A stretch of 64,000 nucleotides of DNA from Notolepis coatsorum (taxonomy: Eukaryota > Chordata > Actinopteri > Aulopiformes > Paralepididae). Below, piece after piece: positions 1,317-54,229 of this stretch. Each line of letters opens with the position of its first letter. The stretch's first letter is position 1. The position numbers were made by a program, and so were the translations under genes. The notes beneath the pieces were generated by a model. It did not search any database. It worked only from the letters and a program-made list of their open reading frames with translations, and was not told the DNA's origin. The stretch covers positions 154,418,177-154,482,176 of the forward strand of contig OZ020590.1 of assembly GCA_963971535.1 (NCBI GenBank). The letters run 5' to 3'.

Positions 1317-2062
1317 CATGTACATGTCAAAATACTTCCCAAAGGTCAGTGAATACCACGATCACAACACCAGAGGGAGCTCCACAAATCATGTAAAACC
1401 CAGATTCGGCTCAAACAAGGGACTAAACACGTTTCGCAATTATGCCACAACAATGTGGAACGCCCTACCCAAAGCTGTAAAGGAATGTGAATCACTACCC
1501 ACCTTCAAAAACACTCTCAAAGAACACCTACGGGAGACTGCAATTCAAAACTGGCCCCTACAAATGTCCTAACCCAGTTGTACAATAAAGACCAAGCATG
1601 GCTTTGTCAGTATTCCAATGTACAGCCCCACCCAACCCCACCCCACCTACCCAACCTCCTCCAATGTACAGTTTCTATGTCAAATGTATGTCAGTATTCC
1701 AATGTACAGTGTCCCCCCCCCCCACCTCCAATGTACAGCCCCACCCCACCTACCCAACCTCCCCCAATGCACAGTTTCTATGTCAAATGTATATACACTA
1801 TTTTTCTGGATTTTTTTAGTATCACAAACAGTACTGTATTTGAAAATCTGGTATGTCATAAATGTATAGATGTAGCAGTACTGTCTATCTGTATGTCGTG
1901 TGTGTCATATGATGAATTGAAAATGGGGGACCCTGATGGAAACAAGACGAAAGTCTTTCTCAGGTCTGCATCCTCTTAACAATTGTATGTATTGAGCTGT
2001 ACTGTACTGTACCCATTCTGCAATCTGTTAATAAACTTTTCAATCAATCAATCAATCAATCA
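1317..2062 (+). mobile_element. LINE 3' end with (CAAT)n tail
   Basis: About 1330-1560 encodes a LINE reverse-transcriptase C-terminus: YHDHNTRGSS, then TMWNALPKAVKECESLPTFK and KEHL, the usual pattern of CR1/L2/Rex1-type LINEs. The 3' UTR contains a C-rich duplicated unit of about 84 bases (1607-1790), then gttaataaacttttcaatc and a (CAAT)n tail ending at 2062. The same 3' UTR and tail appear at 35241-35827 (+) and 57264-57415 (-), so this is a family with several copies in the window. It is a 5'-truncated, dead copy. Confidence 0.8.
1607..1795 (+). repeat. C-rich tandem duplication in LINE 3' UTR
   Basis: Two copies of about 84 bases, each running from gtcagtattccaatgtacag through a C-rich stretch to cagtttctatgtcaaatgta. 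They lie inside the LINE 3' UTR. The copy after the N gap shows related C-rich expansion, so this is probably a hot spot of the family. Confidence 0.7.
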
Positions 2063-2581
2063 GCATGTGCAGCACTCCTCACCAGCTTGTTCAGTTGGTT
2101 GGTGTCCCTCGAGTTGATGTTGACGTTGTATACAGCGGTAACCCTTCAATGGTCTTGTGGCTACAACTAAAGTTTGACTAATACAGGATATACCTGGCCT
2201 CTCCCATACAGTATGACTTCTAAACAGTGGCGTCCTTTCAGTAAAAGGCAATGGTATGGCGAGGAGGGAGGGGGGGGGTGAAGGGGCGGTTTTCCCCCCT
2301 TGGTGGATTTTTATGTCAAATCAGTTGTGCAATAGTCACTTTTGGTGAGTTGTTTCTATACAATTCAGTTATATGACATTTAGGTATGACACAGGACTAC
2401 ACAAGCATTTTTAGTATAGAAATGTGTCAACAGACTAAAGCAGGGAACCACAATATTTTGCATACGAATTATGCAGAATGTAATATCATAACTGTCTATT
2501 TTCTTGCAATTGAGCCAATTTTCCTTAGGTACGGTTTTGAGGTGTGTGTTCAACAGAATGTAGTATCAAAAACACATTCAC

Positions 2582-3977
2582 TGTTGTGAAGGATCAGATT
2601 AAACCGAATATATATATTTATTTATGGATATATATTTAATAGTATTTGTATATCGTTTGATATCCCCTGTATATTCCTTGTACAATATGCACTGAATATC
2701 CCTTTAGTCTACTAACAGCCCATAATAGTTTCATTCTACCATTGGACGAGAACCTGGCGCCAGCAGCCATGCCCCTTGGTTCAAGTTCAATCGTGCCGAC
2801 CAACATGTCGTGGCAAGCCCGGTTCCGCGTAGGAATACGTCTGGCGAAATACGAATGGTACTATTTGTTCACAGCGCATATATATATGGCGCAAGTAAAG
2901 TAGAACTTTCTTTTAGTCCATTAGTCCTTTACCCTCCAACCTAGTAACAGACGCGAAGCCTCACCCACGACGCACGTGTGGTGCAGTAAGGCCTACTTGG
3001 CCTCAGAATAGGCATTGAGACATCGTGTGGATTAATAGTTGAATTGTCATAGTTTGGCACTATACCGTCGAGTTGGACGTATTTCTATTAAGCTAATAAT
3101 AGTCTATTATGTATGGTGCATCGTTCGGTTAGAGTTATAAAGTGAGCAGTACCCCCATCGTTCCTGACGTTATCTGGAGTCTTAACCAGGCTGGGCAGAC
3201 CACGTGTGGTGCTTGCATCCGAGGAGCTCCGGGCCAGGACGAGTGGACCTGTACATTGGATTACTTTACCCGGACGACGGCGAGCCTTCCACGGCTTGGA
3301 TTATCTACATGCTTTGGGTGCTTTGATTATTCCATGGATAACGGCCAACACTGCGGAGTGTTGGAACTACCCCCCGGAGAGGAGTCCAGGTGAGACGGCG
3401 CTCTACCCCGAGTGAGGTCGCCTCACGTCTCTTCGTTGTAGACCGGCAGCTACCGTCCACCAGAGGGTCCGGCTGTATTCATCTGCGGACCGAGGTTCTG
3501 TGGGCATCGTGTTCAGGACTCTGAATTCTCCCAAGAAATCGTCGGCCAGATGGGATACCGCCAGCGGCTCTTCTAACCCCCCCCCCCTACTGTCTTACAA
3601 CCAGCGGGACCCCCCCTTTAGTGTATCCAGCTATAATCATTTAAGTACCATCGGTATAGTTCCCTAAAGAACCAGGTTGTATACTTACTCCCTGCGTAAC
3701 CAGAGATTGGACATTCAATGTTGATTTACCTACGAATACTCATTTGCCTTACAAGTGCATTTCAAATCATAAATGTCATTAAGTGAACGTTGTATATACC
3801 CTTTGCTATATAAAATATTCGATTTATACATTTGTGTGGACTTCGTTTCATCAGGTGGGAAAGTGTTCATCATATCTATATCATGTACTGGATGGCCAGA
3901 AGTTAAAGTACAAGCGGTAGTGGTTTAATAATACCATACTTATCAATACAGTCAGGGAATTGTACCCCTCAGTTACA
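2582..3977 (+). repeat. 5' LTR of BEL/Pao element 1
   Basis: 1396 bases, TG...CA ended, matching 8312-9707 almost base for base. A TATA-like stretch followed by atggcgcaag lies at about 2877-2896. The same TATA plus ATATGGCGCAA arrangement is kept in the LTRs of elements 2 and 3, so it is probably the core promoter of the family. Confidence 0.95.
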
Positions 3978-3979
3978 AT

Positions 3980-3996
3980 TGGTCCTTCGAGCCGGA
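3980..3996 (+). promoter_or_regulatory. Primer-binding site, tRNA-Tyr
   Basis: TGGTCCTTCGAGCCGGA lies two bases after the 5' LTR and is the reverse complement of the last 17 bases of vertebrate tRNA-Tyr (ending CCGGCTCGAAGGA plus CCA). It primes minus-strand DNA synthesis. The assignment rests on recalling the tRNA-Tyr acceptor stem CCTTCGA. Confidence 0.88.
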
Positions 3997-4038
3997 TGGT
4001 AACTAGTGTAATATTAATATAGTGTTATTAATATTGAA

Positions 4039-7000
4039 ATGGCCTATGATGAACACTCCACGAAACGGTCCTCCTAACGTAGAACGCCCGCAGCGCAGAC
4101 GACAGCCACCTCAGTACTTAGAGGACTACGCTGTCAGTCAACTACCTAGCCTTCTACAAACGGTAAACGCGGTAAAAGTAGAAAGTAAAATTATGTCTGA
4201 CCTTAACGACCAGGTTTCCCCGACCACAAAGGCCCTAGTGGGTTCTAATGTAACTGACCAAGCTCACGGTGGGGACCAGGAGGGAGCTGACATGCCTTTA
4301 CCCCCCGCCAATACCGAAGAAGTAGTCCCCGACCAGCCCCGGGAGGAAGACAACCCTACAGAGAGAGAACTCTGCACGGAAAAAGAGGAGGAGAGCGCCG
4401 AGGAAATAGAGCTCCAGGACTCCCCAACGAGCGGCTCACCCAGGAGCGGCTCACCTCTACAACCGTCTTCCCCCAGCGAAGCGGAGAGGATGCTACAACA
4501 GGCGTTCCTCGTCAGCCTGACAGCCTCTACCGAACGCGATCGACTTCAGAGTGAACGCGATCGACTTCAGGGCGAACGCGATCGACTCCAAGCACAGCAA
4601 CGGAGCGAAGAAGAGCACATACGCCTGGAGATGAGACGCCTTCAGACGGAAGAGAATATGGCAAGAGACTGGGCCGACGCCCAGCGCGCCGCTGCCGGTG
4701 CCCAAAGAGAAGCAGATCTCACCAAGCGCGAAGTCGAGCGCGACAAGTTACAAGCGCAGCTAATGGAGCAGCTGATCCTCAAGGCAACACCCTCTCCCTC
4801 CGCCAGGGGTTCAAGGAACTCGTCGAGACAACAGTCAAGGGCAGCGTCTCCTAACCGAGCAAGCGACCCTGAACTTGACCAACAGACCAAGCCTATACCC
4901 CCCGCAGACCCCCTTCCCAGACCGGTCCAAGCGAGACCCAGCTACAAGGAAGGAGCGGCATACACTGCGTCCGCTGCGGCCCAGCTGGGACTGCAGGGGA
5001 GCGAGAACCAAATGACGATTCGGACAATAAGAAGAGATTTAAAGACGATAAAGGGCGAGAATGTCTCCTTCACTATCGCAGCAAGCGGGCAGCCAGAGCG
5101 ACGGTATAGGATTACAAATGCTTTCACCAGCCAAGAAATAGGACTATCGCAGTACACCTACCCCATCGCCAAGCTGATGGATAAATATGTGCACCTGCGT
5201 CAACTACCTATCCCGCTCATAGACGGCGCCACCCCGACCCTGCTGATAGGCTCCGACCATGCAGAACTCATAGTCCCGATTGACCGGGTCCATACAGGAC
5301 CCCGAGGCTGTCCTGCAGCAGTCGAGACCCGCCTAGGGTGGACACTACAAGGCCCCCTCGCTAAATCTCTCAACCGAACAGCAGCCACTAGCTGCCTCCA
5401 CTCCAGAACGACAGAAGGAGACACCACACTCCTGCAGCATGTCGAGAAGAAAATTGACTGGCGACGTCGTGCGCTGCTCCGCGCCTCCCTGATCAAAGAC
5501 GGCTTTGATCTCCGGCAGCGGGCCAGCAGCGACCCCCCAGTATTGCGCAACCTCAACCCAGAGGTCGCAGAGGACCCAGCAGCAGATGAAGAGGTCCGAC
5601 ACAGTGTGAAGAACAGTTTCTACGTGGACAACTGTTTACAAAGCGTTTCGACTCAAGAAGAAGCCGAGGCTCTCCTAATCAAGCTACGCGCCTCCCTGAT
5701 CAAAGGCGGCTTTGATCTCAGGCAGTGGGCCAGCAGTGACCCGCACGTATTGCGCAGCCTCTCCCCCGCGGACAAGGCTGCCAGCAGCGAGACCTGGATG
5801 GCGACCATCCCAGGAGAAGCCCAAGAAATGACACTAGGACTAGTCTGGCGCTTCAAAACAGACTCGCTCCACTATAGACACAAACCCCTGACTCCAGAGC
5901 AGGGAAGGTCGACGGCGACACCGACCACCAGACGGAGTGTGTACAGAACACTCGCCAGACAATATGACCCGTTGGGATGTATTCTACCTTACACCACCAG
6001 GGCAAAGATGATTGTACGAGCACTATGGGACAAGGACCAGGGCTGGGACGACCCAATACCCGCACACCTTGCCTCCACATGGAGAGAGTGGGAGACGGAA
6101 CTCCGCTCACTCCCAGGCGTCAATATACGCCGCAGCTACTTCCCACCCACGGTGAGGCCAGAGACATGCAAGATGGATCTACACGTCTTCAGCGACGCCT
6201 CCGAAGTAGCCTATGGATCGGTGGCCTACTTGCGTGCCCAAGAGAAGGGAGGAGAGATACACACCGCTTTCATCCTGGCTCGCTCAAGAATAGCCCCACG
6301 AAAACAACAATCTATCCCGCGTCTAGAGCTCTGCGCAGCCCTAGCAGGAGCGCATCTAGCCACGTTAATCCAACGTGAACTCACCATTCCGGTGCACAGA
6401 ACAATCTTGTGGTCAGATTCCACGACAGTACTCACATGGATCAAGTCTGATTCATGCAGATACAAAGTCTTCGTGGGAGTCAGAGTCACCGAGATTCAAG
6501 AGTTAACAGAAGCAGCGAGCTGGCGGTATGTGGACACCAAACACAACCCAGCTGACGTCATCACCCGGGGAATGTCCCTGGATGACCTCACCCGTCGCAA
6601 CATCTACAGTGACGGACCAGAATTCCTCAAGCTCCCGGAAGAAGAGTGGCCTACGCCCACCCCACGGGAAGCAAGTGAAGAGGAGGCTGAGAACAAGAAA
6701 CCTATGTTCTGTGGACTGAGCACAGTCGCCTCCACAGACCCCAACATAGATGACTGCATTACCCTACAGAGTGCGCAGCTAAAGACATTCCTGTGGCACC
6801 ACCCAGAGATTCAGTCCACCACTGACATTTCAGCAGCTGACTACGAAGAAGCAGAACTTCTTCTACTACAACGAGCCCAGAGAGACTCGTTCCCCGACGA
6901 GCTAGACTGTCTACAGGGAGGAAAGCCCGTCCCATCAGACAGCAGACTGCTCCACCTGGCACCCGAGAGTGACGCCCATAATCTCATCAGAGTGGGTGGT

Positions 7001-8218
7001 CGCCTGCGGAGAGCCCCCGATCTACCGGATGACATTAAGTACCCGATAGTCTTGAACAGCCGACACAAGGTCACAGAGCTGATCATAAAGAGATACGACG
7101 AGGATGTACACCACGCAGGAGCAGAGAGAGTCTTCGCGGAGATCAGACGTCGCTATTGGATACTTCAAGGAAGAGAAGCGGTGCGACGCTTCCAGCGAAC
7201 CTGTCTAGACTGCCGAAAGTGGCGCGCGCAGCCCAGCATACCACGGATGGCTGACCTACCCCCCTGTCGCCTCCGACTCGGCGACAAGCCATTCCACTCC
7301 ACAGGCATGGACTGTTTTGGCCCGTTGTATATAAAGAGAGGAAGAGGAACCGAGAAGCGGTGGGGTATTGTATTCAAATGCATGACCACCAGAGCGATAC
7401 ATATCGAACTCCTTCCGACCATGAGCACAGACTCATTCCTTATGGCCTTCCGAAGATTCACATCACGGAAAGGAAAACCGTCTACATTGTTGTCTGATCA
7501 CGGGACAAACTTCAAAGGCGGAGAAAGAGAGCTGAGAGAGAGCTTCCAAGCTATGGGCCCAGAACTTAAGACCCACCTCGCTCCATCCCAGATTGACTTC
7601 GAGTTTAATCCCCCGAACGCACCCCACTTCGGTGGAACCTGGGAACGAGAAGTACGTTCTATAAAGACAGCCCTGTATGCCGTGCTTGGGGCCCAGACTG
7701 TGGCGGAGGAAGTCCTAATGACAGTCCTCACGGAGATCGAGGGAGTATTGAACTCCAAGCCCCTCGGCTACGTCTCCAGTGATGTAGCAGATGTCGACCC
7801 AGTCACCCCCAACACACTCCTAATGGGGCGGCTGGACCCCGCGCTACCCCAGACAATGTACAGGCCTGAAGAAGCGAACGGCCGAAGAATGTGGAGGTAC
7901 AGCCAAGTACTAGCTGACAAGTTTTGGAGCAGCTTCCTACTCCACTACCTACCGTCTCTACAGACCCGCCAGAAGTGGGTAAAAGAGAGAGACAATTTGA
8001 CAGAAGGAACAGTCGTCATGATTGTCGACCAGTCACTACCCAGAGCTATGTGGCCGGCTGGCCGCGTAAGAAAAGTGATCACCGGTGCCGATGGCAAGGT
8101 CCGAGCAGCTGAAGTGCTCGTCCAGGGGCGAACTTACACACGACCCGTGGCGAGGCTAATAGAACTGCCCCGACTCCCAGACACTATCGATGACGACCAT
8201 GACCCCATGACTTTGTGA
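4039..8218 (+). pseudogene. gag-pol region of BEL/Pao element 1 (broken)
   Basis: The parts that can be recognised, in order, are a Gag N-terminal region with charged coiled-coil repeats of the RDRLQGE type (about 4530-4760), the end of a retropepsin-like DUF1758 domain (about 4960-5390), the Pao-type A17/RNase H region with VFSDASEVAYGS (about 5830-6560), an integrase with a HHAGAERVF and CLDC zinc-binding part and a catalytic core (GMDCFGPL, LLSDHGTNF, GGTWEREV; about 7060-7700), and a C-terminal DUF5641-like domain (about 7900-8200). Domain order (integrase after RNase H) and DUF1758/DUF5641 are BEL/Pao hallmarks. The region is broken at about three places compared with its relatives and is treated as a fossil. 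Confidence 0.9.
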
Positions 8219-12515: not shown

Positions 12516-12760
12516 ATATTTACATTTACATTTAGTCATTTAGCTGACGCTTTTATCCAAAGCGACTTACAAGTTTTGTAGTATGACAAGTCATCAGGAA
12601 GGGCACAAAAAAGGGGGTAGGGACCGCACTCAAGGAATATCGTAAGTCATCAGGAAGGGCACAAATCTATCAGCTGAGTAACAATGTTCATCAAAGTGTT
12701 GAGTGCTATCGTGTAGGTTAGTATATTAGTAAGTGCATGACAATACGGTTAGTTAGGGTT
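12516..12760 (-). mobile_element. LINE 3' UTR with conserved fish tail
   Basis: acatttacatttagtcattt followed by agctgacgcttttatccaaa and gcgacttacaag is a very common teleost retroposon 3' end. Beyond it, ctatcagctgagtaacaatg and gttgagtgctatcgtgtagg match 51680-51750, where the same 3' UTR leads into a LINE coding fragment. This copy has an internal direct duplication of about 22 bases (aagtcatcaggaagggcaca, 12587 and 12645). It is 5'-truncated within the UTR. Confidence 0.7.
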
Positions 12761-17813: not shown

Positions 17814-17857
17814 TAGTTTATTTTCTGTCTTTGTTTACAGATCAATCAAAAACGATA

Positions 17858-18141
17858 GGTTATGACTATAACCAAGTTCTGTTAGTTAGGGGCGATGCTT
17901 GGCATCGCTACTGCACTATCTCGCGTACGTGCACGCGTACTGAATAAACCACAAATGTACCTCTAATACCAGTATTAGTCTGACCACACCCCTCATCAGC
18001 TTACCTTCATAAGCAGGTGTGTGGTCACCTGCTCTCCTCCTTCCCAAGCTTTCACCACAAGGTGAGGACAAGGGCTGCAGCGGCCGTCCGATGCCAAGCA
18101 TCGCCCCTAACTAACAGAACTTGGTTATAGTCATAACCTAA
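17858..18141. mobile_element. Small inverted-repeat element (MITE-like)
   Basis: A 284-base unit has terminal inverted repeats of about 53 bases (17858-17911 and 18088-18141), beginning around taggttatgactataaccaa and including ctaactaacagaac. Its interior (17898-18062) is nearly identical to the inverted copy at 22981-23143. No coding capacity and no clear target duplication. The family is not recognised. Confidence 0.65.
17898..18062 (+). repeat. Left arm of the long inverted repeat
   Basis: From cttggcatcgctactgcac to ttcaccacaagg. Its reverse complement at 22981-23143 differs only around one short site over about 160 bases. Confidence 0.92.
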
Positions 18142-18671
18142 CGTTCTGTATCGTTAGTGGCTTAGCTTGGCATCGCTACTGCACAAGGGAGGCCAAGCGG
18201 AGCCACTTGGCTGACAAATACACCCCGCTGACAGCCCCCCAAAACCATCAGAACAGGGAGGGCCGAGCCCCCCCGACCCCCCCTAATGGAGGGTAGCCCC
18301 CCTATTAGGGACGTCACGGGAGGGCGACGGACCCGACCGTGCGAAGAGGCACTCAAGCAACTCAACGCACAGGGTGAGCAGACCGTGGCTCGACCCCACG
18401 ACTACACACACGCACAACCCGCATGCCACCCGGGAACGAACGGAGGAACAACCTCGTTACTGCCCCCAGAATCACGGGGTCAAGGGCAAACCCAACCCCG
18501 TGGCAAGGCCGTAGCAGCGGAGCACGAAGGAAGACCCAGACCCACCAAAAGGACTGGACTCCCTAGAATGGGGGCCCGGAGAAGTCCATGATGCCAGCAT
18601 CAAGACCCCACCAGGTGGGCACGTAGTGCCCCGCCCCCCACATCGCCAGCGTATTCGGACAAAGGCCCCTC

Positions 18672-18776
18672 AGTTACTGCACCTGGTATTCCCAGGCGGA
18701 ACCAACCAGGCCAGAACCTGCCCAGCTTCCGAGATCGGACGAGATCGGGCGTGTTCAGGTCGGTATGGCCGTAAGC
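18672..18776 (-). pseudogene. 5S rRNA-like sequence 1
   Basis: Read on the minus strand it runs from GCTTACGGCCATACC through CTGAACACGCCCGATCTCGT, CGATCTCGGAAGCT and GGCCTGGTT to CCGCCTGGGAATACCAGG. It matches vertebrate 5S rRNA from its first base to near its last, but lacks about 16 bases in the middle, including much of the box C internal control region. It is either a 5S pseudogene or the 5S-derived head of a SINE3-type element. No SINE body follows it. Confidence 0.8.
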
Positions 18777-18840
18777 CGAGCGGGCCCCGTCCCCCCAATA
18801 GCACACCGCCTGGCACACTGACCCTGCAGAATAGGCAGTC

Positions 18841-18855
18841 AGCATGGCCGTAAGC
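18841..18855 (-). other. Possible 5S fragment
   Basis: The minus strand here reads TGCTTACGGCCATGC, matching the first 12 bases of 5S rRNA. It is too short to be certain and may be chance or a third degraded copy between the two longer ones. Confidence 0.25.
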
Positions 18856-19433
18856 ACACAAAAAGGTTAACCAACGGAAGCAGGCAGCGCACCGGGGAAA
18901 AACCAGGCAACAGGCTGTTAACCCTAGCCTGGAGACTGCGGACGAGACAGGCGCCAGAGGGGACAGCTGAACACAGCCGCCCCGGCGGAAGGAGCGTAAG
19001 CTGGCGGTGTTGCATGACCAAGCCTCCATTTAACAACCCCCACCCAGAGGGGTCGAGGCAGAGAAGGCTGACACGATTGGCAGACGTCACGAACGTGCAG
19101 GGGCACCCTCAAACGGTGAACCCGGGAGTTGACACTGCTCCAACACACCAGGGAATCAACCACCTCGGTGTTACCCAATGCGGTGGTTGTTCCTATAACC
19201 CCTCAAGAAAAAACTCCAAAACACACCTGCGGGTATACACCGGCTATACCGCAGTACAAGTGTTTCAGTTTCCAAAAAGGGTTAACCCAGGCCTACGGGT
19301 CGCAAACATCACTTCGGACCGGGCCTGGCGGTACGGGAAGCACAGGGTCACCAGAGGAGGTCAAAAAACCACCCCCACAGGCCCCTCTTCGCCATGCGTG
19401 AGAGAGGAGCGAAAAATAATGGAGAACCAGCCC

Positions 19434-19554
19434 CTAAGCACACCGTACCTGGTATTCCCCGGCGGTCTCCCAACCAAGTACTAACCAGGACCAACCTGTG
19501 TAGCGGCCGAGTTCCGACGAGATCGAGCGCGTACAGAATGGCATGGCTGTAAGC
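19434..19554 (-). pseudogene. 5S rRNA-like sequence 2
   Basis: A full-length (about 121 bases) minus-strand match to 5S rRNA: GCTTACAGCCATGCC, CGATCTCGTCGGAACTCGG, CCTGGTTAGTACTTGG and TTGGGAGACCGCCGGGGAAT are clear. By eye roughly 80-85 percent of positions agree with vertebrate 5S, and the box C promoter region is better kept than in copy 1. The substitutions across the stems argue against a working ribosomal gene. Confidence 0.8.
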
Positions 19555-20749
19555 CATGACGACAGTGCTGAGTAAAAACATACCCAACCAGGGTCTCCAT
19601 AGCGCTTAACCCTGTGACACCCAGACCGACCTGGCATTTTTCCCCCTGAAAAAAGCCCAAGTCCCTCAGGGTACCAGAACAGCAGATCTGCATCCCCGGC
19701 GGACAACGGGTTCAACTGATCTGGACCAGCGTGACCAGAACCAGTCCCGTGCCCTAACCACGCCGACATGCCTACTCCAGGAGAAGGGCAGATATGCGTG
19801 TTGATCTTAACATGAAAAGAAGGCGCCACCCAGACGTTCGGACGAACCGCGCCTGGTGGCCCACCCCAAGGGCGTGAGACCCCACTACATATGTTCAGAT
19901 CCATCCCGTCATCATCCCCCAGACATGAACGAGAATCCGTCGACAACCCACCCAGGTCATGGGATGTGGTCGCCGGAAGAGGAAAAACCCCCATCTCAGT
20001 TGCTTTATAAAAACGCTGTTTCAACCACAAGCAACCAAGGCGTGCCAGTCAATCGCCTGTTTACAGCGAGCTAGCACTATACGTGCGTCGGGACACACCC
20101 CCATCAATGAACAGGCTATTTAGACCTGTCATTGAATCCCCAAGGCGCCCAGGGGAACGACAAGAGGGGTGTGACACTCCCTAACTCCAACACTTCTGGA
20201 ATAGAAAGAAGGAAGCATCAACAGTATGTATCCCAGTCTACACAGCCGGGGTAAAAAATGTTCACATTTTTACATCCCACCACCCTCCCATAGGAAAGAG
20301 ACGGGGATCCCCAGAGAGACTTCCCACGCGAGCTGTACAGATTGAAAAGAATATATTGCACCTTGAGCCATGTAAAAAACTGGTTTTAGGGCCTCCGGGG
20401 AAGAGGCACCGAACCCATACACACTCAATAAACGAATTGAATCGAATATACATACAATAGAAAAGGACCCTTCTAGAGGGTCCACTCACTTTGACAATCT
20501 GAGGAGGAAGGCTCTGTACTCTGATGGAGGCTTCCTCACATGGAAGAAGGAGTCCGAACTCACAGAAGGCCTGAGTAGGCGCTTGGTGAGGAGGAGCCCT
20601 GACCACCCCCCCTGAAAACAGATCCATCACATGGACCTGAACAGCACACGGAAGTCCTACCAACAGAGACGCGCACGGTGACGTACTCTATGGCGGGGGA
20701 ATTCCTGCGGTGCACACGCCCAATATACCAGGCCGTGGGACCAGGAACT

Positions 20750-20776
20750 CCCTCCCCCCCCCCCCCCCCCCCCCCC
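20750..20776. repeat. C homopolymer run
   Basis: A run of about 20 C after ctccctc. Such runs are frequent in this window (also 33737, 35350, 53096, 63915) and mark possible sequencing or assembly uncertainty. Confidence 0.9.
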
Positions 20777-22019
20777 GTAACGTGCCGAACCGCCACGTGA
20801 CGGGAACCTTGAAGGACAGGGGGTGTACCCCTGACCGACAGAACAATGGGGAGAGGAAAGGTTACCAGTTCACCCCTTTACGACCCCACACCCATGATAC
20901 GACGTAACGACAAAAAGAGAATATGACACAGTCATAGTCAGCTCTATGAAGCGTTTCACAGCTCCACACAGCGCACGAGCTAACCTGCTATCTGATTTTT
21001 ACTAAGGAAAAACACAGAATAGAGAGGGCTCTAAGAACCCCGGTCCAACATACACATGTGCTTCTGTGGCCAGTACAACCCAGTCGTAGGTCACATGACA
21101 CACACAACCCATCATCACCTACAAAAAATGGCAAAAACACTCAACAGAGGAACGCCGTTTTTTTCACAATGAGAGAATACATCATTCTCGATTAGTATCG
21201 ACCACAGGCCTTGCTAAGCACACATGACAGCAACCAAACCAATTTCCCTTTAGGAAATAAGTTTCTCCAGCAGATTTAGCACAACCTCAGCAATCAAGCT
21301 GAGAGTTACATCGTATCCCTACCACACAAAAGACACAATTAATGCACAACATGTCTGATAGGAGGTGATAAAGTCCCCAGGGAACCGGGGGGGGAAACAC
21401 AATCCTCCTATTTTACCCTCAATACGGCCAGTTAAAACAGGAAAACCTGTTAATGTGTGAACTCACTGTTCATTGTCATTACAGTCTGAGAAAGAACATT
21501 CTTTTACTCACTCGTCACCAAGCATAGCTTCATAGGTTAGTTGCCTTAGTAGTGAGTACACGGTACACATAAACACCATGATGTTTCTCACACAACAACC
21601 AGATCAATACATCACGATCTGCACGGAGAAGCTAACTGCCAGTGACAAAAACAGCTCACACACAACCCGCAACGTATCCCAAATGCATTGCAACAACACA
21701 CGTTTTGGGAAAAAACACCGTTATTCACAATACATTTAGCAAGGTAAAACCAGAAGACGTGTTATGAGGTCTGGCCAACCCCGTACCTACCCGGAACGCA
21801 GATCAGCGAAGTGCAGTCACAAGACACCGTAGAACACAGCCGTCCTGTGTTGTTCGATCCGGGCAGCGTCGCCGCTCCACCAGTCGCTACAGTCCTCTTT
21901 GTTGACGCAATCCCCGTCTAGGCTCAGGTAGGGTCGACGAACATCCCCTGTCAAGGATGACGTCGTGGTCAAGAGTGTAAAACATGTTAAAATCAAAGCA
22001 CGTTCAACAGAATAGCATC

Positions 22020-22170
22020 AAGCTAACGGCTGCTCCAACCGTTCGGGTGCTATTGCTTCCGCTCGCGAGACGCCGATCTAACGACGCACGCGATCAGGAG
22101 CGAGCTCCCGGCGGCGCGCGAGAAGCCAAGCTACCCCGCGCCAGGCCACCGACCGGCTAACCGTAAGCTA
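22020..22170. promoter_or_regulatory. CpG-rich patch
   Basis: Dense CG dinucleotides (for example gctcgcgagacgccgatcta and cggcggcgcgcgagaagcc). This could be an unmethylated promoter-like patch inside the inverted-repeat-bounded block, but no gene is seen next to it. Confidence 0.3.
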
Positions 22171-22980
22171 TGAACATGTAAACAATGACATAACACTCAC
22201 CCAGACAGGCCGCCGTTCTGAACCCTCCTCACTTTTTAAGAGAAAAGAGAAAACAAGACGTCAACACCGCTTCACAACGGTGACATTACCACGTCCGGCG
22301 GAATCAGCACAGTACCAACTGGCCTGTATAGCTGACTTTGAACATGAATCTGCCGCTATCGCACATTACATGCACATATCCCCTCGTGAAGGAATACTCT
22401 CATTTGGATATGAAAGATGGGGTCTTAACACGGTGACAGAGAGAATCCACTCGTCCAGAACACACAGGGATCACCAGTGTCAATGGTCGCGGCCCACTAG
22501 TTAAAACTATAATGGTCGCCAGACCAAGGCCTTCTGTCGCCTAGACGGCTAAACAAAGGACCCTAGCCTGGGGCCGGTTTCCATAAACTTTGTCAAGTAG
22601 CCCCCATAGCACTAACAGACAAGTGGAGCCCGCCAGCAAAACACTACTCACCCAACCTGGAACGCACCGCTCCTCACAACAGCGGCATGTCCGACAGTTC
22701 AGCTGTGGCCTGACAGGTTTCACCCCAACAAACACAGCAAGGAACTGCAGTTGAGAAGCATGCAGCGGCGTGCTCCCAATACGAAAACCGGTGGAGGGTT
22801 TGTAGAATGATCATCATCTTCTAGACACTCCAGTACGAAGACAATATCGCCGTATTTTCTCGAAAATAGTGAGAGAGAAAATAAAGATATGATGTCAACG
22901 TATCCTTGTTTCCCAAGCTGTTCCTAATCCAATTTCTTCCATCATGGTGTCAAGTGTGGGGATCTACCGAGGCACCTCTT

Positions 22981-23143
22981 CCTTGTGGTGAAAGCGAGAA
23001 GGAGGAGAGCAGGTGACCACACACCTGCTTATGAAGGTAAGCTGATGAGGGGTGTGGTCAGACTAATACTGGTATTAGAGGTACATTTGTGGTTTATTCA
23101 GTACGCGTGCACGTACGCGAGATAGTGCAGTAGCGATGCCAAG
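22981..23143 (-). repeat. Right arm of the long inverted repeat
   Basis: The reverse complement of 17898-18062, from ccttgtggtgaaag to gtgcagtagcgatgccaag. The two arms are about 4.9 kb apart. Confidence 0.92.
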
Positions 23144-23403
23144 CTAAGCCACTAACGATACAGAACACACTTGTGTGGACTTTCAAAAAAAAAGAAATCA
23201 CAAATGTACATATTCAAAGTAAGCTCACACACAAAATCCAGACTCAATGACCGAAAAAAGGAATAGGCTGAAGCACATGCTTAATGTTTGATGTTTTACT
23301 CAAAAAAATAATTCTTAAGAAAAATCATTGATGATGAAATTCAATGCATTTCTTTCTTTTCTGTGAAGTCTAAACAAAACGACTAATGGTGATAATTAGG
23401 GAT

Positions 23404-25212: not shown

Positions 25213-25254
25213 GGGTAATTAGTGTAATATTAATATAGTGGTATTAATATTGAA

Positions 25255-28200
25255 ATGGCCTATGATGAACACTCCACGAAACGGTCCTCCTAAAGTAGAA
25301 CGCCCGCAGCGTAGACGACAGCCACCTCAGTACTTAGAGGATTACGCTGCCAGTATACTACCTAGCCTTCTACAAACGGGAAACGCGGTAAAAGTAGAAA
25401 GTAAAATTATGTCCGACCCTATCAACCAGGATACCCCGACCACAGAGGCCCTAGTGGGTTCTAATGTAACTGACCAAGCTCACGGTGGGGACCAGGAGGG
25501 AACTGACACGACTTTACCCCCCGCCAAGACCGAAGAAGTAGTCCCCCAAGAGCTCCGGGAGGAAGACAACCCTTCAGAGATGGAACTCTGCACGGAACAA
25601 GATGAGGAGAGCGCCGAGGAGATAGAACTCCAGGACTCCCCGCAGGGGAACGCATCCCCGACCGGTACTGCCAGGAGCGGCTCACCTCAACAAGCGTCTT
25701 CCCCCAGCGAGGCGGAGAGGATGCTGTCACAGGCGTTCCTCGCCACCCTGACAGCCTCTACCGAACGCGATCGACTTCAGGGTGAACGCGATCGACTTCA
25801 GGGTGAACGCGATCGACTCCAAACACAGCAACGGAGCGAAGAAGAGCACATACGTCTGGAGCTGAGACGCCTTCAGACGGAAGAGAATATGGCAAGAGAC
25901 CGGTCCGACACCCAGCGCGCCGCTGACGGTGCCCAAAGAGAAGCAGAGCGCGACATCGCTCTCATCCAGCGCAAAGCCGAGCGCGACAGACTACAAGGCG
26001 AGCGCGACAGACTACAAGCCGAGCGCGACAGACTACAAGCGCAGCTAATGGAGCAGCTGATCACCAGGGCAACACCCCCTCCCTCCACAAGGGGTTCCAG
26101 GGCCTCGTCAAGACACGTGTCAAGGGCACCCTCCCCTGACCGAGCAGGCGACCTTGAACCCGACCGCCAGAGAGAGCCCACACCCCCCTCCGAACTCCTT
26201 CCCCGACCGGTCCAAGTGAGACCCAGCTACAAGGAAGGAACAGCGGACACCGCGGAGAGGCTAAATAGACGACTACAGGATCTAGAAGACCTGGCAGAGG
26301 AAGAAGAGGGAGAAGAGGAGAGTCAAGCCCGACAGCAGCACATTACTCCACAGGACCAGGAGGTCCAGTACAGCCCAGGCTATACCCCCGCGGCTCTGCG
26401 CTACAGACCCCCGACTCGACTCACGGGTGAGCATGACGCACGACCAGTCCCGAGGAATAGCACCTGGACCAGCGGGCCATGGTACCCCGCCAGTACCAGC
26501 CCACCGAGAGGCGTAAGAGGAGACTCGCCCAGGAGGCCTCTCTTCCAACGCTCACCGATGTGCCAGCCATCCACGGCGTCATACATTGGCACACCGACGT
26601 TTCCAGACTTCACCCATGAGAACCGAGCACAGTACACGGAGCTACGGATGTGCTTAGAGACAATGATGGTGGATGTAGCTGATGAACGCCACAAGTATGC
26701 GATCCTATTGAAGCACCTGAAAGTACCCAGAGCGCACAACATAGCGCTGGCCTATGCCACCTCTACTACCCCATACACCGCGGCTCTAGCAGCACTAGAC
26801 CAAAGATATGGACGTATATGGGATTACGTAATACAAGAGATAAGGCATATTGACCGCCTACCCCCAGCAACAGACAATCGCTCACCAGACGACCTGTCTA
26901 TCAAAGTACAATCCCTGGTAGGGATGCTGGGGGCGCAACGAGAAAAGGGTATGCACGAACTATACGCAAACTTTTAGAGAAGCTGCCGCCCGCCCGACAG
27001 GAGCGCTTCAGGCGGCAAAGAGACCACCGTGATCCTAACGGTCCCGAGCCATCCCTCCTAGACCTAGCCGACTTCCTGGCGAGAGAAGTCAGCAGCCTAC
27101 GGCTGGATACGTTCGTGCGGAGCACACCAAGCTCCAGAGAGGGACCTAGGAGAGTAAACGATGGCCGAAGATCGGTGACTGTCATGCACCAATCAGAATC
27201 AGTACCGAGCAGCAAGAACCACAGTACCCCCTCGATGAAAGAGAAGTGGAAGATGGTGTGCCCGTACTGCGAGAAGGAACACTGGTTGTCACAATGTGAC
27301 CAGTTCAAGAAGATGACCGCTGAAGAAGTGAGTCACTGGATAAAGTCCAACAGGCGCTGTTACCGATGTGCGCGCAGTCACATGGCAGCCGAGTGCCGCC
27401 TAAAGAAGAGGTGTAGTCGGTGTGACGGAGCCCATCTGGATGTCCTACACGACAGTAACAAAAAAAAGCCTGCACCATCCAGCAGCACAAAGGCAAGTGT
27501 TATGTACATTGACCCCGCTAGCAGCAGCGGCGCCCAGGTGCTCTTAAAGGTGGTCCGTGTAACACTGAGTTACCAAGATAAGATCATGGACACTTACGCC
27601 GTCCTTGATGACGGGTCAGAGAAGTCCCTTCTCCTCGCGTCCGCTGCGGCCCAGCTGGGGCTACGGGGGAGCGAGAACCAGATGACTATTCGGACAATAA
27701 GACGAGATCTAAAGACGATAAAGGGCGAGAATGTCTCCTTCACTATCGCAGCAAGCGGGCAGCCCGAGAGACGGTACAGGATTACTAATGCTTTCACCAG
27801 CCAAGAAATAGGACTATCGCAGTACACCTACCCCATCGCCAAGCTGATGGAGAAATATGTGCACCTGCGTCAACTCCCTATCCCGCTCATAGACGGTGCC
27901 ACCCCGACCCTGCTGATAGGCTCCGACCATGCAGACCTCATAGTCCCGATAGACCGGGTCCATACAGGACCCAGAGGTTGTCCTGCAGCAGTCGAGACCC
28001 GCCTAGGATGGACATTACAAGGCCCCCTCGCCAAGTCTCTTAACCGAACAGCAGCCACTAGCTGCCTCCACTCCAGAGCGACAGAAGGAGACACCACACT
28101 CCTGCAGCATGTCGAGAGGCTATGGACACTAGAGACAATGCCCTTTAAGAACGAAAAGAAAGACATTCGTTCTAAGGAAGATATCTACGCTATAGCCCTC

Positions 28201-31200
28201 CTCGAGCACGGGACAAAGAGAGTCAACGTCAACGGAGTGATGAGATACGCAACTCCACTCCTGAGGCGAGAGGGAATGCCCACCTTTCGTGCTACAAAAG
28301 AGGCGACGGAGCGGTAACTATTGAACACAGAGCGGCGCCTAGCCAAAGACCCCGCTCAAGAAGCTGTGTACCGCGCTGAGATTAACAAATTAATCACAGC
28401 GGGACACATAAAGAAAATTGACATTAAAGAGGCCGATCAGACGACCGAATCATGGTACGTGCCGCACCACAAGGTCCACCACAACGGCAAGGATCGCATT
28501 GTGTTTAACTGCAGCTACCAGATCGGATCACAAAATCTGAATAAAGAGCTCTTGGCCGGCCCAACACTCGGCCCCTCCCTACTAGGCGTGCTACTACGCT
28601 TCCGCCAGGACAAGGTGGCTATCAGCGGCGACATCAAAGGGATGTTCCTGCAGGTGAGACTAGTGGAGGAGGACAAGCCCCTGCTGCGGTTCCTATGGAG
28701 AGAGAGGATCGGAGATGAGCACCCAGCCATCTATCAATGGGAAGTCCTCCCTTTCGGAACCACATGCAGCCCATGCTGTGCTACGTTTGCACTGCAAAAG
28801 CACGTCGCAGAGGACCCAGCAGCAGATGAAGAGGTCCAACAAAGTGTGACAAATAGTTTCTACGTGGACAACTGTTTACAAAGCGTCTCGACGCCAGAAG
28901 AAGCCGAGGCTCTCCTACTCAAGCTCCGCGCCTCCCTGATCAAAGGCGGCTTTGATCTCAGGCAGTGGGCCAGCAGCGACCCGCAAGTACTGCGCAGCCC
29001 CTCCCCCGAGGACAAGGCCGCGAGCAGCGACACCTGGATGGCGACCATCCCAGGAGAAGCCCAAGAAATGACACTAGGACTAGTCTGGCGCTTCAAAACA
29101 GACTCGCTCCATTATAGACACAAACCCCTGACCAAGGAGCAGGGAAGGTCGACGGCAATACCGACAACCAGACGGAGTGTATACAGAACACTCGCCAGAC
29201 AATATGACCCGTTGGGATGTATTCTACCTTACACCACCAGGGCAAAGATGATTGTAAGAGCGCTATGGGACAAAGACCAGGGCTGGGACGATCCCATACC
29301 CGAACACCTTGCATCCACATGGAGAGAGTGGGAGATGGAACTCCGCTCACTCCCAGGTGTTAATATACGCCGCAGCTACTTCCCACCCACAGTTAGGCCA
29401 GAGACATGCAAGATCGACCTGCACGTATTCAGCGACGCCTCCGAAGTAGCCTACGGTTCGGTGGCTTACTTGCGTGCCCGAGAGGAGGGAGGAGAAATAC
29501 ATACTGCTTTCATCCTGGCTCGCTCAAGAATAGCCCCACGCAAGCAACAATCTATCCCGCGTCTAGAGCTCTGCGCAGCCCTAGCAGGAGCGCAGCTCGC
29601 CACGTTAATCCAACGTGAACTCACCATCCCGGTGCAAAGAACAATCTTGTGGTCAGACTCCACGACCATACTCACATGGATCCGGTCTGATTCGTGCAGA
29701 TACAAGGTCTTCGTGGGAGTCAGAGTCACAGAGATTCAAGAGTTAACAGAAGTAACCAGCTGGAGGTATGTGGACACCAAACACAACCCAGCTGACGTCA
29801 TCACCCGGGGAATGTCCCTGGATGACCTCACCCGTCACAACCTCTACAGTGACGGGCCAGAGTTCCTCAAGCTCCCCGAAGAAGAGTGGCCTACACCCAC
29901 CCCACGGGAGGCGAGTAAAGAGGAGGCAGAGAACAAGAAACCTATGTTCTGTGGGTTGACACACACACTCGTCCCCACAGACCCGGTTCTAGACGATTGC
30001 CTCACCCTAGAGAGTGCGCAGCTAAAGACATTTCTGTGGCACCACCCAGAGGTTCAGCCCACAACTGACATTTCAGCAGCTGACTACGAAGAAGCAGAAC
30101 TCCTTCTACTACAACGAGCCCAGAGAGACTCGTTCCCCGAGGAGCTAGCCTGTCTACAGGGAGCAAAGCCCGTCCCATCAGACAGCAGACTGCTCCACCT
30201 GGCACCCGAGAGTGACGCCCATAGTCTCATCAGAGTGGGTGGTCGTCTGCGGAGAGCACCAGACTTACCGGATGACGTTAAGTACCCGATAGTCTTGAAC
30301 AGCCGACATAAGGTCACAGAGCTGATCATAAAGAAATACGACGAGGATGTGCACCACGCAGGGGCAGAGAGAGTCTTCGCGGAGATCAGACGTCGTTATT
30401 GGATACTGCAAGGGAGAGAAGCAGTGCGGCGCTTCCAGCGAACCTGTCTAGACTGCCGTAAGTGGCGCGCGCAGCCCAGTATACCCCGGATGGCTGACCT
30501 ACCTCCCTGTCGCCTCCGACTCGGCGACAAGCCCTTTCACTCCACCGGTATGGACTGTTTTGGCCCGCTGTATATAAAGAGAGGAAGAGGAACCGAGAAG
30601 CGGTGGGGTATTGTATTCAAATGCATGACCACCAGAGCGATACATATCGAACTCCTCCCAACCATGAGCACAGACTCATTCCTTATGGCCTTCCGAAGAT
30701 TCACATCACGGAAAGGAAAACCGTCTACATTGTTGTCTGATCACGGGACAAACTTCAAAGGCGGAGAAAGAGAGCTGAGAGAGAGCTTCCAAGCTATGGG
30801 CCCAGAACTTAAGACCCACCTCGCTCCATCCCAGATTGACTTCCAGTTTAATCCCCCGAACGCACCTCACTTCGGTGGAACCTGGGAACGAGAAGTACGT
30901 TCCATAAAGACAGCCCTGTACGCCGTGCTTGGGGCCCAGACCGTGGCGGAAGAAGTCCTAATGACAGTCCTCACGGAGATCGAGGGAGTATTGAACTCAA
31001 AGCCCCTCGGTTACGTCTCAAGTGATGTAGCAGATGTCGACCCAGTCACCCCCAACACCCTCTTGATGGGGCGGCTGGACCCCGCGCTACCACAGACAAT
31101 GTACAGGCCTGAAGAAGCGAACGGCCGAAGAATGTGGAGGTACAGTCAAGTACTGGCTGACAAGTTTTGGAACAGCTTCCTACTCCACTACCTACCGTCT

Positions 31201-31461
31201 CTACAGACCCGCCAGAAGTGGGTAAAAGAGAGAGACAATTTGACAGAAGGAACAGTCGTCATGATTATCGACCAGTCACTACCCCGAGCTATGTGGCCGG
31301 CTGGCCGCGTAAGCAAAGTGATCACCGGTGCCGATGGAAAGGTCCGAGCAGCTGAAGTGCTCGTCCAAGGACGGACTTACACCCGACCCGTGGCGAGGCT
31401 AATAGAACTGCCAAGGCTCCCCGATACTATCGATGACGACCATGACCCTATGACTTTGTGA
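25255..31461 (+). pseudogene. gag-pol region of BEL/Pao element 2 (broken)
   Basis: The domain series is that of BEL/Pao: a Gag N-terminus with several RDRLQGE coiled-coil repeats (about 25750-26050), a DUF1759 Gag core (FPDFTHENRAQYTELRMCLE, about 26590-26980), zinc-knuckle-like cysteine clusters including CYRCARSHMAAEC (about 27255-27450), a DUF1758 retropepsin-like domain (YAVLDDGSEKS, about 27540-27900), reverse transcriptase (ISGDIKGMFLQV, LPFGTTCSP, FYVDN; about 28430-28900), the Pao A17/RNase H region (FSDASEVAYGS), integrase (HHAGAERVF, GMDCFGPL, LLSDHGTNF, GGTWEREV; about 30290-30920) and a DUF5641-like end. It would encode a single Gag-Pol polyprotein in the intact ancestor. About two breaks; treated as a fossil. 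Confidence 0.93.
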
Positions 31462-40267: not shown

Positions 40268-41462
40268 CAGTGGCTCAGTCAGGAGGTAGAGCGGTCTAGA
40301 GACAGTGGTTCAGGAGATAGAGCTGGTCTAGAGACAGTGGCTCAGTCAGGAGGTAGAGCGGTCTAGAGACAGTGGCTCAGTCAGGAGGTAGAGCTGGTCT
40401 AGAGACAGTGGCTCAGGAGGTAGAGCTGGTCTAGAGGCAGTGGCTCAGTCAGGAGGTAGAGCTGGTCTAGAGACAGTGGCTCAGGAGGTAGAGCTGGTCT
40501 AGAGTCAGTGGCTCAGGAGGTAGAGCTGGTCTAGAGACAGTGGCTCAGGAGGTAGAGCTGGTCTAGAGACAGTGGCTCAGGAGGTAGAGCTGGTCTAGAG
40601 ACAGTGGCTCAGTCAGGAGGTAGAGCTGGTCTAGAGACAGTGGCTCAGGAGATAGAGCTGGTCTAGAGACAGTGGCTCAGTCAGGAGGTAGAGCTGGTCT
40701 AAAGACTGGCTCAGGAGGTAGAGCGGTCTAGAGACAGTGGCTCAGGAGGTAGAGCTGGTCTAGAGACAGTGGCTCAGGAGGTAGAGCTGGTCTAGAGACA
40801 GTGGCTCAGGACAGGAGGTAGAGCAGGTCTAGAGACAGTGGATCAGGAGGTAGAGCTGGTCTAGAGACAGTGGCTCAGAAGGTAGAGCTGGTCTAGAGAC
40901 AGTGGATCAGGAGGTAGAGCTGGTCTAGAGACAGTGGCTCAGGAGGTAGAGCTGGTCTAGAGGCAGTGGCTCAGGAGGTAGAACTGGTCTAGAGACAGTG
41001 GATCAGGAGGTAGAGCTGGTCTAGAGACAGTGGCTCAGGAGGTAGAGCAGGTCTAGAGACAGTGGATCAGGAGGTAGAGCTGGTCTAGAGACAGTGGCTC
41101 AGGAGGTAGAGCGGTCTAGAGACAGTGGCTCAGGAGGTAGAGCTGGTCTAGAGACAGTGGCTCAGGAGGTACAGTGGTCTAGAGACAGTGGCTCAGGAGG
41201 TAGAGCTGGTCTAGAGACAGTGGCTCAGGAGGTACAGTGGTCTAGAGACAGTGGCTCAGGAGGTAGAGCTGGTCTAGAGACAGTGGCTCAGGAGGTAGAG
41301 CTGGTCTAGAGACAGTGGCTCAGGAGGTAGAGCTGGTCTAGAGACAGTGGCTCAGGAGGTACAGTGGTCTAGAGACAGTGGCTCAGGAGGTAGAGCTGGT
41401 CTAGAGACAGTGGCTCAGGAGGTAGAGCTGGTCTAGAGACAGTGGCTCAGGAGGTAGAGCGC
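40268..41462 (+). repeat. 32-bp minisatellite built from a SINE head, about 38 copies
   Basis: The unit begins gtggctcaggaggtagagct and continues with ggtctagagaca. Its first 19 bases are the A-box region of SINE family 1, and the array runs directly into a SINE body at 41443. Variants carry ctcagtcagg, ggatcagg or gtacagtgg. The array probably arose by repeated slippage or unequal exchange at the 5' end of that SINE. Confidence 0.93.
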
Positions 41463-41939: not shown

Positions 41940-43352
41940 TTGTTCAAACCCACCGCTCCCAGTTCAAACCCACCGCTCTCAGTTCAAACCCACCGCTCCC
42001 AGTTCAAACCCACCACTCCCAGTTCAAACCCACCACTCCCAGTTCAAACCCACCGCTCCCAGTTCAAACCCACCGCTCCCAGTTCAAACACACCGCTCCC
42101 AGTTCAAACCCACCGCTCCCAGTTCAAACCCACCGCTCTCAGTTCAAACCAGCCACTCCCAGTTCAAACCCACCACTCCCAGTTCAAACCCACCGCTCCC
42201 AGTTCAAACCCACCACTCCCAGTTCAAACCAGCCACTCCCAGTTCAAACCAGCCACTCCCAGTTCAAACCCACCACTCCCAGTTCAAACCCACCGCTCCC
42301 AGTTCAAACCCACCACTCCCAGTTCAAACCAGCCACTCCCAGTTCAAACCAGCCACTCCCAGTTCAAACCAGCCACTCCCAGTTCAAACCAGCCACTCCC
42401 AGTTCAAACCAGCCACTCCCAGTTCAAACCTACCACTCCCAGTTCAAACCAGCCACTCCCAGTTCAAACCAGCCACTCCCAGTTCAAACCCACCACTCCC
42501 AGTTCAAACCAGCCACTCCCAGTTCAAACCAGCCACTCCCAGTTCAAACCAGCCACTCCCAGTTAAAACCAGCCACTCCCAATTCAAACCAGCCACTCCC
42601 AGTTCAAGCCAGCCACCCCCAGTTCAAGCCAGCCACTCCCAGTTCAAACCAGCCACTCCCAGTTCAAACCCACCGCTCCCAGTTCAAACCCACCACTCCC
42701 AGTTCAAACCAGCCACTCCCAGTTCAAACCAGCCACTCCAAATTCAAACCAGCCACTCCCAGTTCAAACCTAAGAGTTCTGGTTCAAGCCCACCACTCCC
42801 AGTTCAAACCAGCCACTCCCAGTTCAAACCAGCCACTCCCAGTTCAAACCAGCCACTCCCAGTTCAAACCTAAGAGTTCTGGTTCAAACCCACCACTCCC
42901 AGTTCAAGCCAGCCACTCCCAGTTCAAACCAGCCACTCCAAATTCAAACCCACCACTCCCAGTTCAAACCTAAGAGTTCTGGTTCAAGCCCACCACTCCC
43001 AGTTCAAACCAGCCACTCCCAGTTCAAACCAGCCACCCCCAGTTCAAACCAGCCACTCCCAGTTCAAACCAGCCACTCCCAGTTCAAACCAGCCACCCCC
43101 AGTTCAAACCAGCCACTCCCAGTTCAAACCAGCCACTCCCAGTTCAAACCTAAGAGTTCTGGTTCAAGCCCACCACTCCCAGTTCAAACCAGCCACTCCC
43201 AGTTCAAACCAGCCAGTCCCAGTTCAAACCAGCCACTCCCAGTTCAAACCAGCCACTCCCAGTTCAAACCAACCACTCCCAGTTCAAGCCTAAGAGTTCT
43301 GGTTCAAATCCACCACTCCCAGTTCAAGCCAGCCACTCCCAGTTCAAACCAG
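41940..43352. repeat. 20-bp minisatellite, about 70 copies
   Basis: The unit agttcaaaccagccactccc (or cccaccactccc) repeats every 20 bases for 1.4 kb. A variant unit containing taagagttctggttcaa recurs at about 42770, 42870, 42970, 43150 and 43290, a higher-order pattern. Three of six frames stay open and encode repeats such as QFKPATPSSNQPLPVQTSHS, a by-product of the period. Confidence 0.97.
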
Positions 43353-44174
43353 CGACAGTTTCACGGACTGAGCTTGAAGATGATTGATTTTCACAGATCC
43401 AAAGCAAGCAGCAGGACTGACTGGTTTTATACATCACTGCTCTGTCATTTCATTTCATTCCATTTATTTGGAATGAAGGGTTCCATTAGCAGCCAGTCTT
43501 CTTGGGGTCCACAAAGAATTTTGAGGCAGTGCTTCAATGTCAGATGTAATATCACCACCAACAGCACCACCAACATTTATGGATACGGTTTATGTAGAGT
43601 AATCTTTATTTTTAAAATGTTTATAAAGAATACATCCACAGAGTTTTAGAAAGGTGAGTAATAGAAGTATTGCTTTTCTCCCCAGAAAATTATTAATGAA
43701 TGAATTTATCATTTAAACATTTTGGCGGGTCCAAAATGTATGTTACGTGCATGTATCCCCTCCCTACTTCCCATTTCTCCACGTGGAAGGCACCTGATTG
43801 GATCAAAGACATGGTGGTGCTCTAGTGCGACATCTAGTGGCAATGTTATCTATAGCACCTTTAATAATAGTTGTGTGTTTTTCCAATCACCCAAAGAAAC
43901 ATGGTGGTGTCCCTGAGAGGTACCTCTATGACGACGCTCAAGTCTCCATTCACTCACGGTTAGCCACACTGCCCCTAGTGGCGGCTTACACACAATGCAC
44001 ATTGTGTAAGACTAGTTAGATTTGCATCTATAACACTGTACTGTTTGCCCTTGTTCAATTTCCACGTCAACTAATATGCTCCTAACCAGTTTGTTAAAGA
44101 TAGACTCTGTAATGCCACCGAACAACGACCTCTAGACGTGTTTTTTGTTGTGGTCTGATGTGTCGGTTGGAGTT
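43353..44174. other. Mostly unassigned; fragment of a common fish retroposon
   Basis: tttcattccatttatttgga and ggttccattagcagccagtc plus cttcttggggtccac (about 43445-43520) belong to a widespread retroposon 3' end. The rest, including the frames at 43374 and 43722, is unrecognised. Confidence 0.4.
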
Positions 44175-49399: not shown

Positions 49400-49443
49400 G
49401 TCAATATTAATATTATATTAATATTACGCTAATTATAATCCGG

Positions 49444-54207: not shown

Positions 54208-54229
54208 GTAGTAGCACACAGCAGGGTCC

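Follow-up and report, generated by a model that had tools for sequence, protein, structure and literature searches.

It has been previously reported that DIRS1-like retrotransposons carry inverted terminal repeats (ITRs), an extension at one end, and two internal complementary regions (ICRs) that overlap on a 3-bp circular junction. One trinucleotide stands at both ends of such an element and is complementary to the junction, and integration occurs at an identical trinucleotide without target duplication (PMC3266345, in the part defining the group). These elements encode gag, reverse transcriptase/RNase H (RT/RNase H) and a tyrosine recombinase, and the same part of that source gives measures for stickleback GaDIRS1: 5,322 bp, GTT/GTT/AAC for the two ends and the junction, a divergent ITR portion of 19, a conserved ITR of 148, an extension of 27 and ICRs of 46-56. 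Here we describe an element at positions 17851-23166 of a 64,000-nt stretch of DNA from the fish Notolepis coatsorum (contig OZ020590.1, positions 154,418,177 to 154,482,176; the whole stretch is called the window). Its measures are nearly equal to those of GaDIRS1: 5,316 bp, GTT/GTT/AAC, a tip of 22 followed by 147 identical columns, an extension of 25 and ICRs of 42-57. The block is very probably one member of a young and very large family of non-autonomous retrotransposons of the DIRS1 type.

Ends and internal layout of the element

An initial annotation of the window had described near-identical inverted arms (17898-18062 and 22981-23143) and an exact 42-base inverted pair (18143-18184 and 23125-23166). 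Both are real, and the arms extend further, to 17876-18062 and 22981-23166, with 95.2% identity over 188 columns. The key to the structure is a third pair that the annotation had not included, 17851-17907 with 18089-18145 (57 nt, 98%), because of which the left 295 bp resembles a separate miniature inverted-repeat transposable element (MITE) if the window is read alone. Read along the minus strand, the order is left ITR, body, left ICR, right ICR, right ITR and 25-nt extension, with the following coordinates.

17851-23166, minus strand: whole element, 5,316 nt, with its 5' end at 23166 and its 3' end at 17851 (sense is the minus strand)
22981-23166, minus strand: left (5') ITR, beginning with GTT (23164-23166)
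18185-22980, minus strand: non-coding body, from open reading frame (ORF) and six-frame Pfam searches
18143-18184, minus strand: left ICR, exact complement of element nt 1-42
18089-18145, minus strand: right ICR, complement of the element's last 57 nt with one mismatch
18143-18145, minus strand: overlap of the two ICRs, AAC in sense, the circular junction
17876-18062, minus strand: right (3') ITR, as bounded by the arm alignment
17851-17875, minus strand: right extension, 25 nt, ending in GTT on the minus strand (plus strand: AAC at 17851-17853)

A 20-base core of the tip occurs three times in the window with up to three mismatches and never in 100 shuffles. At 20 loci, the window copy (L001) included, the element ends abruptly on both sides, next to unrelated flanks. 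Every structural feature that defines DIRS1-like elements was found: ITRs with an extension, two ICRs on a 3-bp junction, matching end trinucleotides and unduplicated integration.

Copies, insertion sites and one-strand mutation bias

A search of the 3.42-Gb host assembly with 18143-23166 scored at least 33 near-complete places. We collected 30 loci (20 plus ten more), of which a script excluded one (L022) as incomplete, and aligned the remaining 29 full-length copies. As they were selected for their similarity to the window copy, the set is not random; the copies measure 5,300-5,401 nt and have a mean pairwise identity of 99.1% (lowest 98.3%). GTT opens 28 of the 29 copies (the other has CTT) and closes 28 (the other has GAT). 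The left and right ITR cores show no difference in 22 copies, 10 differences in one, and 71 in another, the last being probably a failed anchor.

Genome-wide, a 30-mer on the ICR junction (up to two mismatches) was found at 3,834 + 3,792 = 7,626 places and a 30-mer in the 5' body at 2,900 + 2,889 = 5,789, with no match for either reversed control. If every junction were a full copy the family would make up about 1.2% of the genome, which is an upper figure as many may be truncated; among the matches listed on one contig, the exact 5' tag was in place at 55 of 100 exact junction places. The first eight bodies examined next to a junction belong to the same family, seven being 95-99.6% identical and one (L035) 79-95%, and eight further bodies selected for a missing 5' tag are non-coding relatives at 75-97%. 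Non-coding relatives therefore account for all 16 sampled bodies (1.2-1.6 kb each, from the part before the ICR). In a subfamily comprising L021, L023, L024, L026, L028 and L022, a different stretch occupies what are sense positions 1017-1136 in the window copy. The ITR used as a DNA query gave no match in a search that skips very common words, which is no evidence of absence. The exact tip 20-mer was absent from viral and prokaryotic contig collections and phage records gave no match, results that say little given the scope of these collections.

The initial annotation had expected full-length copies of a transposon to show sharp ends and target duplications; the former were present and the latter were not. 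We fused the two flanks of each of the 29 copies with one GTT between them and compared the products with the fetched loci. Matches spanning the join were obtained for 11 loci, and two of these (L011 and L017) were discarded because they match the element's own tip. The remaining nine copies (L006, L007, L010, L013, L018, L019, L020, L023 and L027) have related empty sites with a single GTT-type trinucleotide and no duplication, and the other 20 had no empty relative among the fetched loci. L027 has CTT at both the element start and the empty site, as if the exchanged bases were supplied by the host. The flanks of L002, L006, L018, L019 and L023 are tandem repeats rich in GTTAAC-like motifs, offering repeated GTT targets.

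Furthermore, singleton changes among the aligned copies, polarised by the other copies and read on the sense strand, are strongly asymmetric: A-to-G was counted 63 times at 964 A columns versus T-to-C 8 times at 1,546 T columns (p 5e-19). The other singletons included 33 C-to-T (21 at CpG) and 29 G-to-A (13 at CpG). An A-to-G excess persisting over time would account for the sense strand being A-poor (the plus strand of the window is T-poor). Such an excess would most naturally arise in an intermediate that is strand-specific, either RNA or cDNA, and reverse-transcriptase error is the simplest idea that remains for it. Editing by ADAR was considered and rejected: the expected deficit of a 5' G is missing (G precedes 17 of 63 sites, compared with 263 of 957 A residues of the window copy), and the changes number 0-7 per copy without obvious clusters, with the lowest rate in the final bin, where the right ITR lies.

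5S rRNA-derived stretches and coding capacity

Rfam searches identified two 5S rRNA-like stretches in the element, both on its sense strand, and a weak third candidate was also seen.

19437-19554, minus strand: 5S copy 1, the older, 67.6 bits, in sense orientation
18671-18776, minus strand: 5S copy 2, a younger insertion with an internal deletion in this copy, 55.4 bits, in sense orientation
18841-18855, minus strand: possible third 5S relic, weak, the 5' end of 5S only (15 nt, two mismatches)

A 5S array with units of about 232 bp, which at 116.9 bits ranked first among 47 scored matches, served as host reference. L021 has a copy 2 identical to it at 112 of 119 positions, with no difference in the first 63 nt; copy 2 of the window element is identical at 97 of 106, with the internal deletion and four A-to-G changes. 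Copy 1 is older (98 of 118 identical in L002) and is partly deleted in L043, L045 and L047. Copy 2 scored 84.6-94.9 bits in six of 13 scanned loci, is partly deleted in L031 and L036, and is absent from eight of the 16 sampled bodies (L035, L043 and L045-L050). At the site of copy 2, empty copies read CGCTCGGCT directly followed by GAGG, whereas filled copies read CGCTCG, the 5S stretch and then GAGG. The inserted stretch starts at 5S nt 1, runs in sense and has GCT in common with the target, with neither a duplication nor an A-tail. With at most one mismatch, filled junctions occur at 1,544 + 1,580 = 3,124 places in the genome and empty ones at 2,025 + 2,037 = 4,062, and the reversed controls at none. 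Insertion appears likelier than precise loss, given that the copies free of copy 2 count the more divergent family members among them and that the inserted sequence closely resembles the present host 5S. A loose first look with 5S rRNA returned 112,738 candidates genome-wide (47 scored); this genome may be very rich in 5S-like repeats.

The gag, RT/RNase H and tyrosine-recombinase genes of DIRS1-like elements were not detected in this one. Its ten ORFs gave only a sub-threshold match to FbpC-like_RD (E 0.041; 14 bits, the cut-off being 27), and a six-frame translation of 18185-22980 with stops written as X had no Pfam match at E 0.1, in agreement with the initial annotation, which had recognised no transposase. 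The longest stop-free stretch (220 codons) was equalled in 28 of 300 dinucleotide shuffles and is within chance. The element is therefore not an autonomous member, and it is on structure that we call it non-autonomous. The 7,186 filled and empty 5S junctions come close to the number of ICR junctions, which suggests, as a comparison of totals rather than of places paired one by one, that coding partners sharing this ICR, if any, make up a small minority. Elsewhere in the genome, at a place matched by PF00589 (L039), an intact 419-aa tyrosine-recombinase frame that looks Crypton-like (3612-4868, plus strand) lies beside reverse-transcriptase frames at 1480-3366 (minus strand), and several of the 33 PF00589 places share its 419-aa open frame and score.

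The window also contains other repeats. BEL/Pao-type retrotransposon regions with long frames lie at 4007-8218 (plus), 25223-31461 (plus) and 45662-49417 (minus); two of the three match Peptidase_A17, DUF5641 and Integrase_H2C2, and the third has no Pfam match and resembles the others in sequence. UnaL2-type 3' ends of long interspersed nuclear elements score above the Rfam gathering score at 12530-12583 and 51632-51685 (minus). Long minisatellite arrays occupy 40279-41460 (32-bp unit), 41942-43353 (20), 53409-54209 (27), 57636-59884 (51) and 60624-61182 (38). Judged by its repeats and its 5S sequence, the host is likely to be a fish.

Interpretation and comparison with known systems

Taken together, the plan of the ends, the GTT termini, unduplicated insertion at GTT-type sites, near-identical non-coding copies, the precise presence or absence of a sense 5S stretch and the strand bias, which fits an RNA or cDNA intermediate, argue for a non-autonomous DIRS1-type retrotransposon. 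Following the published DIRS model, an autonomous DIRS partner would supply the enzyme that reverse-transcribes the minus-strand RNA, both ends would pair with the ICR to give a circle with a single GTT junction, and the tyrosine recombinase of the partner would recombine the GTT of the circle with a host GTT. The 5S sequence may have been acquired when the reverse transcriptase switched template to 5S RNA.

Several points weigh against this interpretation. No autonomous DIRS partner was found through PF05869, through PF00589 or in the 16 sampled bodies, so we infer mobilisation in trans. The three fetched examples of the 33 PF00589 places resemble another kind of recombinase, which we take to be Crypton-like, and lack the ends of the window element. 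PF05869, a methylase family of a kind reported in DIRS elements (PMC9210276, in part), had no match in the genome, in a search whose positive control worked only in E. coli. The A-to-G excess comes without the neighbour preference expected of ADAR, and the BEL control for strand bias is only partly clean: A/G versus C/T variable columns number 164 versus 68 in the element, and the corresponding differences between pairs of the window's BEL elements number 78 versus 84 (the closest pair), 158 versus 125 and 98 versus 55, two of the three pairs leaning towards A/G. Template switching onto 5S RNA is likewise a step that we infer rather than observe.

The initial annotation had proposed a large non-autonomous DNA transposon, and rightly so as regards a recent, mobile and non-autonomous element. 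A cut-and-paste transposon with long terminal inverted repeats would account for the near-identical inverted ends, the absence of coding capacity and the many copies, but an internal region that is complementary to both ends and overlaps on AAC is a defining feature of DIRS1-like elements (PMC3266345, in part). Moreover, the target is not duplicated beyond one shared trinucleotide, as the nine empty sites show, and the mutation excess lies on one strand. We know of no role for such an internal complementary region in cut-and-paste transposition, and consider this explanation very improbable. Even less credible, to the point of being already contradicted, is the capture of a host segment between two MITE-like units: the left unit does look like a complete MITE within the window, but both units are joined to the body as a single whole at each of 20 loci, the 'MITE' always being attached at the same place, and the interior, far from being single-copy, is multi-copy. 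The suggestion of a satellite was not borne out either, the block being a mobile element with a DIRS1-like repeat plan. Helitron-like elements and several DNA-transposon end types, considered from recall before other copies were compared, were dropped once the ICR was recognised.

Improbable too, if somewhat less so than a DNA transposon, is a decayed autonomous DIRS whose body formerly coded for gag, reverse transcriptase and tyrosine recombinase and then eroded. The length almost equals that of coding fish DIRS elements (PMC3266345, in part), and a strong sense A-to-G drift could erase homology; however, the same non-coding body is found in 29 copies that are 98-100% alike, its six frames are without a match, and coding sequence is likewise missing from copies of greater divergence (75-95%) within the 1.2-1.6 kb sampled. 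As to the 5S stretches, short interspersed nuclear elements (SINEs) headed by 5S exist in fish, and together with the 112,738 loose candidates (47 scored) this makes insertion of such SINEs, instead of capture of 5S RNA, worth considering. We regard it as unlikely, for copy 2 is 5S alone, from nt 1 to within the last 5S bases, with no SINE body, A-tail or target duplication. Dada DNA transposons insert in a small RNA gene with a 6-7 bp duplication (PMC8869645, in part); insertion of that kind into 5S was rejected, the element having its borders in unrelated flanks and the 5S inside it.

Under the DIRS1-type reading, the 5S parts may either serve the element, as a start for RNA polymerase III (pol III) or by binding 5S partners, or be mere passengers. 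We advance only tentatively, as a doubtful extension, a 'satellite' DIRS lineage in a vertebrate-type genome that has repeatedly captured host 5S rRNA and would owe part of its success to a role of 5S in its RNA, either as a pol III start or in traffic through bound 5S partners, like a full-length DIRS analogue of the plant element Cassandra, with a replication that leaves a one-strand A-to-G signature reshaping the whole body.

With thousands of copies and clean filled and empty 5S states, the family offers a system for DIRS RNA copying and circularisation. Further questions that it opens to study are whether the ends plus the ICR suffice for mobilisation in trans, by what route pol III genes come to be part of retroelements, and where the one-strand A-to-G bias originates. 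It is also an annotation trap: a copy may be mistaken for inverted-repeat DNA of no class, and may inflate the number of 5S-like hits. The literature covered, to which Repbase, which may list the family, does not belong, appears to contain little on full-size non-autonomous DIRS elements; no DIRS element with 5S sequence was indicated in the literature searched, judged mostly by titles.

Large retrotransposon derivatives (LARDs) such as Dasheng have kilobases of non-coding body between functional ends and are presumed to be moved in trans; the window element resembles them in both respects, but LARDs have long terminal repeats (LTRs). With the fish elements GaDIRS1, GaDIRS2 and TnDIRS1a it shares ITRs, the right extension, AAC-overlapping ICRs, GTT ends, size and an unduplicated GTT target, and it differs in having no detected gag, RT/RNase H or tyrosine recombinase and in the 5S-derived sequence of its body (PMC3266345, in part). 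A known non-autonomous relative within the order of tyrosine-recombinase retrotransposons is SIRE, the non-autonomous form of VIPER in trypanosomes; as far as the consulted part of PMC6681497 goes, SIRE consists of a short VIPER segment and has split direct repeats, whereas the window element is of full length, its ends being of the ITR/ICR type and its body unrelated. In the part of PMC10886601 that treats them, Cassandra and Ajax are 5S-bearing terminal-repeat retrotransposons in miniature, about 420-860 bp long and of the LTR kind, whose LTRs contain the 5S. The window element does not belong to TRIMp3 as delimited there by small-RNA sequence within LTRs, the direct repeats found including no long terminal ones. 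Like Cassandra and Ajax, it is a non-autonomous retroelement with 5S rRNA-derived sequence, but of the DIRS type, 5.3 kb long and with the 5S in its body.

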